64,000 nt of DNA from Sebaldella termitidis ATCC 33386 (GTDB taxonomy: Bacteria; Fusobacteriota; Fusobacteriia; Fusobacteriales; Leptotrichiaceae): NCBI RefSeq assembly GCF_000024405.1, contig NC_013517.1:4309989-4373988 (forward strand), read 5' to 3'. Made by a program: the position numbers and the translations under genes. A model generated the notes under the pieces. It ran no database searches. It was not told the DNA's origin and was given only the letters and a program-made list of their open reading frames with translations. The stretch's first letter is position 1; every line of letters begins with the position of its first letter. Shown one piece after another: positions 35,490 to 38,690 of this stretch.

Positions 35490-36371
35490 TTATTCTCCTC
35501 TTTCTTTCTGATACTTATTTCTCAAAACTATTGCCAGTGTATTGGCAGAAAGAAGAATAACCAGAAGCACTATTATTCCTGTAGCTGCAAGCTCCTGAAA
35601 TTCTTTTTTCGGCATTCCCGACCATTGGTATATCTGTATCGGAAGTGCTGTATACCTTGACATTATGCCGTTAGGTATTCTCGTTACATATGATGCTGCA
35701 CCGACTACCAGTAAAGGTGCTGCTTCCCCCAGTGCTCTGGAAAGAGAAAGTATTATTCCAGTGAATATTCCCGGTGAAGCATAAGGAAGAACAACTGCTT
35801 TTATCATCTGCCATCTTGTTAACCCGAGACCGTATGCTGCCTCCCTTAATATCCCCGGTACTGCTTTTATGGCTTCTCTTGAAGAAACTATTACTACCGG
35901 AAGAACCATGAGAGATAATGTTACTGCTCCGGCAAGTATGCTTCCGCGAAATCCTTTCAGCCTTGAAAAAAGTGCAAGCCCCAAAAGACCGTAAACTATA
36001 GCAGGTACTCCGGCAAGATTTGATATATTTACTTCCAGAAAATTATAAAGTTTACTTTTTTTATTGGAATACTCTTCCAGATATATTGCTGCTCCTACCC
36101 CTACCGGTATTGTTATCAATCCTACAAGACCTACCAGCCATAAGCTTCCAAGTAATGCGGGATAAACACCTGCACGCTGCGGTCTTATTTTTGAAGGAAA
36201 ATTAGTTAAAAAATCAAAGCTCATCCATCTTATCCCCTGCTTTATTATTCCAAACAGCAGCAGTACCAGAAAAACTATACAGAATATAATACAGCTGAAA
36301 AACAGATACTTAAAGATCTTATCTTTTAGTTTTCTTATTCTTAAATTATCTATAGCCATTTTTTCCATCAT
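35490..36371 (-). CDS. pstA: Phosphate ABC transporter permease PstA
   Basis: A 293-residue inner-membrane subunit of the high-affinity phosphate importer. It has six helices and the permease EAA-like loop (L-R-E-A-A-Y-G-L-G-L-T-R-W) that contacts the ATPase. GGGAGG lies 9 bp upstream of the ATG, which is 1 bp after the pstC stop. It is the last gene of the operon and is followed by a strong terminator, whereas pstB normally follows pstA. Confidence 0.95.
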   Translation of the reverse strand: MMEKMAIDNLRIRKLKDKIFKYLFFSCIIFCIVFLVLLLFGIIKQGIRWMSFDFLTNFPSKIRPQRAGVYPALLGSLWLVGLVGLITIPVGVGAAIYLEEYSNKKSKLYNFLEVNISNLAGVPAIVYGLLGLALFSRLKGFRGSILAGAVTLSLMVLPVVIVSSREAIKAVPGILREAAYGLGLTRWQMIKAVVLPYASPGIFTGIILSLSRALGEAAPLLVVGAASYVTRIPNGIMSRYTALPIQIYQWSGMPKKEFQELAATGIIVLLVILLSANTLAIVLRNKYQKERGE

Positions 36372-36372
36372 A

Positions 36373-37446
36373 TTAATATTCCTCCCTAAATTTCAGAACT
36401 ACCGTTTTAGCTATAACATTAAGCAGAAATGTCATGAAAAACAGAATTAATCCTACTACGAATATTGTCTGAAATTCCAGGCTGCCTACCATTACTTCTC
36501 CAAAACTTTTATTTACCATATAACCGGTCATTGTCTGAACCTGTCCTAGAGGATTGAAATTCAAAACAGGCTTTGCTCCGGCTGCCATTGCAACTACCAT
36601 TGTTTCTCCCACGGCTCTGGAAATCGCCAGAATAAAAGAAGAAACTATTCCCGAAATTGCTGCCGGAATCGTTACATTCCATACCGTTTCAAACTTAGTT
36701 GCCCCTAATCCCAATGAACCTTCCCTCATTGTTTTGGGTACCGCTTTTAGTGCATCTTCACTTATTGACGCTACCAGAGGTGTTATCATTATACCGACGG
36801 CAAAGCTCGAGCTTAAGACATTAAATGTATCCACTCTCAGATTTGATGTTTCTTTAAAAAATCCCACAAAATTAAATGCAAGATACAAAAAAAGGACTAA
36901 AAAAATCAAAAATAATATCCCGAAAATTATTTTTGTTCTGATAAAATCTTTATCAATAAATCCTTTTACACATTTTATCATCATGTATAAGGAGAAAAGT
37001 ACAAGAAAAATAAGTGCTGCTTTTGCCAGCCATGAAATATTTTTCTTTAAAAAAGGCGTTATATAAAACAAAGCAAAAAAGCCATACACTACTGATGGTA
37101 TTCCTGCCAGTATTTCCAATACAGGCTTTAGTATATTTCTTGTTTTTGGGTTGGCATACTCACTCAGATATATTGCACTTCCCAAGCCCAGGGGAATGGC
37201 AAACAAGCATGAAAACACCACTATCATCATTGTTCCCACTACAAGAGGAAGTACATAATATTTTTCTCCTCTCGGATCCCATAGTTCACCATAAGAAAAA
37301 AGCTGCTTTAGTCTCTCTCCGTTAAAAAACGGTACTGACTCCAAAAATAAACTGGCAACAATGGCAGCTGTTGTTATTACGGATATAAAAGCAAAAATAA
37401 ATAATATTACCTTTACTATATTTTCTTTTAAGTATTTATTTTCCAT
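36373..37446 (-). CDS. pstC: Phosphate ABC transporter permease PstC, with a hydrophobic insertion
   Basis: A 357-residue permease partner of PstA. The ATPase-contact loop is M-R-E-G-S-L-G-L-G-A-T-K-F. After the conserved A-G-I-P-S-V-V-Y-G-F segment (about residue 115) there is a roughly 65-residue hydrophobic insertion (about 138-205) that looks like two extra membrane helices, before the usual M-I-T-P-L-V-A-S-I-S-E-D motif. That makes it longer than the 320-residue E. coli protein. Upstream of pstA and 95 bp after pstS. Confidence 0.93.
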   Translation of the reverse strand: MENKYLKENIVKVILFIFAFISVITTAAIVASLFLESVPFFNGERLKQLFSYGELWDPRGEKYYVLPLVVGTMMIVVFSCLFAIPLGLGSAIYLSEYANPKTRNILKPVLEILAGIPSVVYGFFALFYITPFLKKNISWLAKAALIFLVLFSLYMMIKCVKGFIDKDFIRTKIIFGILFLIFLVLFLYLAFNFVGFFKETSNLRVDTFNVLSSSFAVGIMITPLVASISEDALKAVPKTMREGSLGLGATKFETVWNVTIPAAISGIVSSFILAISRAVGETMVVAMAAGAKPVLNFNPLGQVQTMTGYMVNKSFGEVMVGSLEFQTIFVVGLILFFMTFLLNVIAKTVVLKFREEY

Positions 37447-37484
37447 TCCGGCTCCTTCGTTATAATAAATCTAAAATTATCTGT

Positions 37485-37531
37485 AACAGCTAAACAAGGA
37501 AAACCGCTCTTTTAGCGATTTTCCTTCTGTT
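37485..37531. other. Intercistronic hairpin between pstS and pstC
   Basis: AAGGAAAA-C-CGCT (37496-37508) pairs with AGCG-A-TTTTCCTT (37514-37526), and AACAG/CTGTT extends the base. Leftward there is no clear U-tract. It probably stabilises pstS mRNA or reduces readthrough, giving more binding protein than permease (inference). Confidence 0.65.
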
Positions 37532-37541
37532 ATTTATTTTT

Positions 37542-38435
37542 TTATTTCAATTTTGCTTTTTCTGCCGAGTAATCATCCAGCGGTATATATCCTACTTCTC
37601 TGGCAAGATCTGATACCTTATCAAGATAAAACTGTACAAAAGCTTTTACCTGTGGTTTTTCTGCATAAGACTTATTATTTACAAAAATAAATATTGGTCT
37701 TGATAACGGCTTATATGTACCATTCTGTACTGTCTCAGGGGTAGGCTCGATACCGTTTATTTTCAAAGCTGTTAACTTATCTGCATTCTCCTCATAGTAA
37801 GCAAATCCGAAGAACCCGAGTGATCCTTTATCTCCCTCCACGCCCTGTACCAATACATTATCATCAGAGCTTGGTGTATAATCTTTTCTTATTTTATTTT
37901 TTCCAAGTATCGCTTCTATAAAGTAATCATAAGTTCCCGAATCTTCATCTGGAGCATATAATTTTATAGGTGTATCAGGCCATTCAGGTCTTACATCCTT
38001 CCATGTCTTTATTGTGCTTCCTTCAGACCAGATTTTCTTTAACTCATCTGTTGTTAAATCCTGTGCCCAAGTATTTTCTTTATTTACAACCATTGTAATT
38101 CCGTCTTTTCCTACCTGGATTTCTGTGAATTCAATGTTATTCTTTTCAGCCAGTGCTTTTTCTTCCGGCTTCATTTCTCTTGAAGCATTGCTGATATCCA
38201 GTTCCCCGACTGTAAACTTTTTAAATCCTCCGCCGGTACCTGATATTCCTACAGAAACATTTACACCAGATTCTACATTTCTAAACTCTTCCGCTACAGC
38301 CTCTGTAATAGGTGCTACTGTAGATGATCCGTCTATTATTACTTCACCGCCGAGTCCTGATGATTCACCTTCTCCGCCTCCGCAAGAAACTAAAAGACCC
38401 AGTGAAATTAACATTAAAGCAAAAATCTTTTTCAT
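37542..38435 (-). CDS. pstS: Phosphate-binding lipoprotein PstS
   Basis: A 297-residue receptor that delivers phosphate to PstCA. The lipoprotein signal ends L-L-V-S-C (Cys18). The binding fold shows D-G-S-S-T-V-A-P (phosphate loop), G-T-G-G-G-F-K-K and D-E-D-S-G-T-Y-D-Y-F, all in the expected order. GGGAGG precedes the ATG. First gene of the pst operon, behind an array of four Pho-box-like repeats. Confidence 0.96.
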   Translation of the reverse strand: MKKIFALMLISLGLLVSCGGGEGESSGLGGEVIIDGSSTVAPITEAVAEEFRNVESGVNVSVGISGTGGGFKKFTVGELDISNASREMKPEEKALAEKNNIEFTEIQVGKDGITMVVNKENTWAQDLTTDELKKIWSEGSTIKTWKDVRPEWPDTPIKLYAPDEDSGTYDYFIEAILGKNKIRKDYTPSSDDNVLVQGVEGDKGSLGFFGFAYYEENADKLTALKINGIEPTPETVQNGTYKPLSRPIFIFVNNKSYAEKPQVKAFVQFYLDKVSDLAREVGYIPLDDYSAEKAKLK

Positions 38436-38484
38436 TATATATCCTCCCGCTAACTTTTTTTCTATGGTAATTTTACATTATTTA

Positions 38485-38523
38485 TGTAAACAGAGTATAA
38501 ATCTAATGTAAAAAAAATGTAAA
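38485..38523 (-). promoter_or_regulatory. Pho-box-like repeat array and promoter of pstS
   Basis: Read leftward, TTTACA (38523), TTTACA (38512), TTTATA (38501) and TTTACA (38490) start exactly 11 bp apart. This matches the TT(A/T)ACA-N5 direct-repeat pattern bound by PhoP in Bacillus. The first repeat can also act as a -35, 18 bp from TATACT (38499-38494). The fourth repeat also pairs with TTTACAT at 38472 as an inverted repeat. No phoP/phoR gene is in the window. Confidence 0.7.
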
Positions 38524-38604
38524 AATTTTATCGGGATATATCAAAAAACAGCCTCTGTCATAAGACCAAAAGGCTGTTCTATATGTAATCATTTTATTAT
38601 CAAA

Positions 38605-38690
38605 TGGTACCGAAGGCGGGACTTGAACCCGCAAGAGCCTAAGCTCGTCAGATTTTGAGTCTGATGTGTCTACCATTTCACCACTTCGGC
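38605..38690 (-). tRNA. tRNA-Leu (anticodon CAA)
   Basis: Read leftward it folds as a class II tRNA: acceptor GCCGAAG with CTTCGGT, a D-arm with A-A-T-G-G-T-A-G-A-C, anticodon stem CAGA/TCTG around loop C-T-CAA-A-A, a variable arm of leucine-tRNA length, the T-arm G-C-G-G-G-TTCAAGTC-C-C-G-C, discriminator A, and an encoded CCA (38605-38607). It decodes UUG. An overlapping open frame is an artefact. Confidence 0.95.

Follow-up and report, generated by a model that had tools for sequence, protein, structure and literature searches.

Does the row of TTTACA-like hexamers upstream of pstS in Sebaldella termitidis form a Pho box, and which regulator would read it? The window analysed is a stretch of 64,000 nucleotides (C1:4309989-4373988) from a chromosome of 4,418,842 bases in a genome of 4,486,650 bases. 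A sequence-only reading of this DNA had guessed a fusobacterial host and reported four TTTACA-like repeats at exact 11-bp steps before pstS. The genome is that of S. termitidis, and the repeat coordinates were confirmed on the minus strand.

The array before pstS

Lying between a tRNA-Leu gene and pstS, the array reads TTTACA-N5-TTTACA-N5-TTTATA-N5-TTTACA on the minus strand, from 38523 to 38485. Repeats 1 (38518..38523), 2 (38507..38512), and 4 (38485..38490) are TTTACA and are conserved in Fusobacteriales pstS promoters. Repeat 3 (TTTATA, 38496..38501) is a C-less unit typical for its position. General definitions of the Pho box are available (PMC4415409, PMC1906773). At least two direct-repeat units with an 11-bp period were required here, and the array has four units whose hexamers start at exact 11-bp steps. 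In the 64-kb window it is the sole match to repeats 1, 2, and 4 at ≤2 mismatches; shuffled sequence would give 0.03. The 4.49-Mb genome contains 2 exact matches to the four-repeat pattern, the runners-up carry 2 mismatches, and a reversed control pattern has 1 match at ≤3 mismatches.

Downstream on the minus strand lie a putative ribosome binding site (GGGAGG, 38443..38448) and the genes pstS, encoding a phosphate-binding lipoprotein (37542..38435; TIGR02136, 301 bits against a cut-off of 206.6), pstC, a permease gene (36373..37446; TIGR02138, 265 bits against 196.45), and pstA, also a permease gene (35490..36371; TIGR00974, 266 bits against 193.45). Between the tRNA-Leu(CAA) gene (38605-38690) and the array, a stable minus-strand hairpin followed by a T run was found at 38536-38580 (-17.3 kcal/mol, z -4.7). 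It is probably the tRNA terminator, and pstS would then be insulated from the tRNA. The hairpin was overlooked by the terminator scan, perhaps owing to a short loop-length limit.

Conservation and promoter placement

Upstream regions of 70 pstS-like genes, from 96 Fusobacteriales genomes searched, were scored on repeats 1, 2, and 4 alone, leaving the form of repeat 3 out of the score. The threshold was ≥15/18, which about 0.1% of shuffled sequences reach. Arrays were found in 58 of the 70 regions, representing 53 genomes and 14 genera, at a period of 11 bp only; periods of 8–10 and 12–14 bp yielded none. Repeat 3 has C at position 5 in 0/53 distinct arrays, against 98–100% for repeats 1, 2, and 4.

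The hexamer TAnnnT, which played no part in finding or scoring the arrays, lies exactly 9 bp past repeat 4 in 58/58 Fusobacteriales pstS arrays, the background rate being 5.2% per position. The array thus occupies the -35 region and keeps a constant spacing to the -10, as a Pho box does. In S. termitidis the likely -10 is TAAAAT (38475-38470, minus strand), with a predicted pstS transcription start near 38463. Counting by the 9-bp rule places repeat 4 at roughly -27 to -22 and repeat 3 at roughly -38 to -33. An ordinary -35 is absent, since TTG stands 17 or 18 bp before the -10 in none of the Fusobacteriales pstS arrays and 16 bp before it in one. Repeat 4 and a TGTAAA over the -10 make up an apparent inverted repeat, which is absent in a same-genus genome (G087) and was treated as incidental.

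The sequence-only reading had drawn a promoter whose -35 and -10 overlap the array. Such a pair, TTTACA at 38523 and TATACT at 38499-38494, does match the consensus scan at 10/12, yet among distinct arrays in relatives TAnnnT is kept at the internal -10 place in 15/53 and at the downstream 9-bp place in 53/53. A promoter inside the array was rejected because the internal -10 is not conserved, and the overlapping pair is probably not the promoter.

The same pair bears on two other explanations. Were the repeats chance or low-complexity AT-rich sequence, the internal pair could be the promoter, and TTTACA-like hexamers are common in a genome of 33.4% GC (PMC3035275). Against this stand the 0.03 matches expected in the window, zero matches of the reversed control pattern across the 96 Fusobacteriales genomes, conservation of the array in 14 genera, and the poor retention of the internal -10. 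Match counts, shuffles, and reversed controls led us to reject a chance origin, whose probability is practically negligible. Alternatively, the Pho box could repress, or serve as both activator and repressor site, as a bound regulator would cover the internal -35 and -10 that the scan places under the array. This is extremely unlikely: units 3 and 4 sit where activators usually bind, ahead of a -10 that has no -35 partner, and phosphate-uptake genes follow.

When arrays were sought in relatives without regard to gene, divergent pstC genes, a pstB gene, and Na/Pi symporter genes were found downstream, with the -10 in place each time. Pattern matches in L128, L129, and L260 lack the -10 and have no gene close downstream; these are probably chance or something else. 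Several fusobacteria have divergent pstS and pstC genes, each with its own array (intergenic regions in L066, L121, L120, and L050). The pstS and pstC arrays lie back to back, about 6 bp apart, in G015, G018-G021, G023, G027, G030, and G032.

A second array and a PhoB-type regulator

The rest of the S. termitidis genome holds just one other exact copy of the array, at C1:322887-322925, with the same layout including the TTTATA third repeat. It directly precedes pstB, phoU, an OmpR-family response regulator gene, and a histidine kinase gene, a unit located elsewhere on the chromosome than the window (L013, 8828 to 5283). In both copies, repeat 4 is followed after exactly 9 bp by a -10-like hexamer (TAAAAT before pstS, TATAAT before pstB). 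The pst genes are split between pstSCA (window 35490-38435) and the pstB-phoU-regulator-kinase unit, each with its own array, and both arrays precede phosphate-acquisition genes.

PstB of this unit scores above its curated cut-off. The regulator (C1:320580-321275) has TIGR02154 PhoB as its top family, at 204.9 bits against a cut-off of 296.2, and on this sequence match is called PhoB-type, not a PhoB equivalog. The top NCBIfam match of the kinase is PnpS (NF046044), of the PnpR/PnpS phosphate system, at 257 bits, below the cut-off of 400; PhoR comes next, also below its cut-off. Scores under the equivalog cut-offs may be expected because the phylum is distant from the training sets. The regulator is encoded alongside pst and phoU genes and a PhoR-like kinase, and a comparison of recognition helices found the R-T-D core kept. 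The sequence-only reading would have been refuted by the lack of a phoP homologue and had proposed searching the genome for phoPR and for the array before other genes. That refutation did not come about: the genome encodes a PhoB-type regulator together with a PhoR/PnpS-type kinase, and the one further exact array stands before the very unit that contains both genes.

PhoB orthologues were defined by an E of 1e-57 or better. In the 96 Fusobacteriales genomes, counted without regard to relatedness, the array occurs in 57/58 genomes with an orthologue and in 1/38 without. Nine genomes have a pstS-like match and no PhoB orthologue; only one of them (G085) has an array, on a contig other than that of its pstS. 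Within genus g14, G015 has both array and orthologue, and G016 and G017 have neither. The pstS gene, the PhoB orthologue, and the array are all absent from Leptotrichiaceae genus g6 (13 genomes; G068-G080) and from several other genera of this family.

For many OmpR-family regulators the binding site consists of direct repeats spaced by about one turn of the helix. Eight proteins of the S. termitidis genome carry an OmpR-family DNA-binding domain, and the array could be the operator of a different one. This is very unlikely, as only the pstB-phoU-linked regulator stands behind an array, and the array appears and vanishes together with that regulator's orthologues across the 96 genomes.

Four further array matches in the S. 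termitidis genome carry 2–3 mismatches. As Pho boxes these are unsupported: the match in L016 sits within a coding frame, the match in L018 is followed by no suitable gene, and those near phnW (C1:3615609, plus strand; C1:3615709, minus strand) lack TAnnnT at 9 bp as read by eye. The 2-aminoethylphosphonate locus (C1:3608254-3615747; L257 255-7529 and L017 1501-1641) encodes phnW, phnX, a hydroxy-AEP ammonia-lyase, and an ABC transporter. Upstream of it are two imperfect Pho-box-like arrays on opposite strands, within 140 bp and with no -10 at 9 bp; judged by these motifs, weak Pho control of the locus is possible. Two tandem, similar phosphate-binding-like proteins are encoded at L262 4350-6385 (C1 around 3562350-3564385), with other pst genes absent nearby.

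Known Pho systems and a proposed switch

The GTDB genome collection was scanned with the fusobacterial pattern, which returned at least 119 stretches. The matches listed are mostly from Bacillaceae, with some from Fusobacteriales, Apilactobacillus, and Clostridia, and 111/119 of those listed have a -10 at 9 bp past repeat 4. Among the downstream frames of the matches listed (n = 108), the best match was PstS for 85, PstB, PstC, or a PhoB-like regulator for 7, and no query protein for 16. The scan pattern included the third-repeat form and is uninformative on repeat 3 in Bacillaceae.

The sequence-only reading had noted a close likeness to the Bacillus PhoP pattern. This is borne out, in that the fusobacterial pattern retrieves Bacillaceae pstS promoters with equal -10 spacing. 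The S. termitidis array has the TT(A/T)ACA units and the -10 distance of these promoters. Because the common pattern recovers them with the -10 at 9 bp, the fusobacterial and Bacillaceae boxes are the same in sequence and geometry. Bacillaceae sequences were the direct basis of this comparison; no text giving the B. subtilis Pho hexamer was found in citable literature. Shared with the Bacillaceae Pho box (PhoPR) are the TTTACA/TTAACA units, their number of four, the 11-bp period, the -10 at 9 bp, and the position before pstS. The phylum differs, however, and in Sebaldella pstB-phoU-regulator-kinase is one transcription unit apart from pstSCA. The E. coli PhoB Pho box likewise has 11-bp direct-repeat units in place of a -35 before pstS (PMC4415409, PMC1906773), but the E. 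coli pstS units are CTGTCAT, and, counted in the same manner, 11 bp rather than 9 separate the -10 from the corresponding hexamer in the final unit.

The array is very probably a Pho box at which the phosphorylated PhoB/PhoP-type regulator of pstB-phoU-phoB-phoR binds, activating pstSCA and the pstB unit at low phosphate. When phosphate is scarce, the PhoR-type kinase would phosphorylate the response regulator, which would bind the four repeats head to tail on one helix face. Once bound, it would bring in sigma-70-type RNA polymerase at a promoter with a -10 (TAAAAT, 38475-38470) and without a -35 hexamer, switching on pstSCA. Acting at the copy before pstB, the regulator would also activate its own unit, pstB-phoU-phoB-phoR, and so complete a positive loop. 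Observed are a conserved array at constant spacing from a -10, its position ahead of phosphate-transport genes, and the joint presence of array and regulator gene; regulator binding, activation, and the phosphate response are inferred. The evidence supports the earlier Pho box interpretation in substance, with its promoter placement corrected.

Sigma region 4 would sit at repeat 3 (about -38 to -33), and we conjecture that this placement accounts for the missing C in that repeat. More tentatively, and with the balance somewhat against it, a Pho promoter module of TTTACA units, a 9-bp -10 distance, and a C-less unit 3 may be common to Fusobacteriota and Bacillota, either ancient and unaltered since or moved between phyla with the regulator; the C-less unit would then be functional, giving sigma region 4 space to sit.

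Open-access full text, searched for fusobacteria, gave no account of a fusobacterial Pho box or Pho regulon. The fusobacterial Pho box is an addition to known Pho box systems, not a new kind of system. From its sequence and distribution, the array looks like a widely conserved phosphate-starvation switch. Pho regulons of fusobacteria can be predicted from it in a simple way, and its distribution marks out lineages that lack regulator and box alike, such as most Leptotrichiaceae sampled. Since Fusobacteriota and Bacillaceae have almost the same promoter design, tests of the conserved spacing and of the unusual third repeat could be made in either group.
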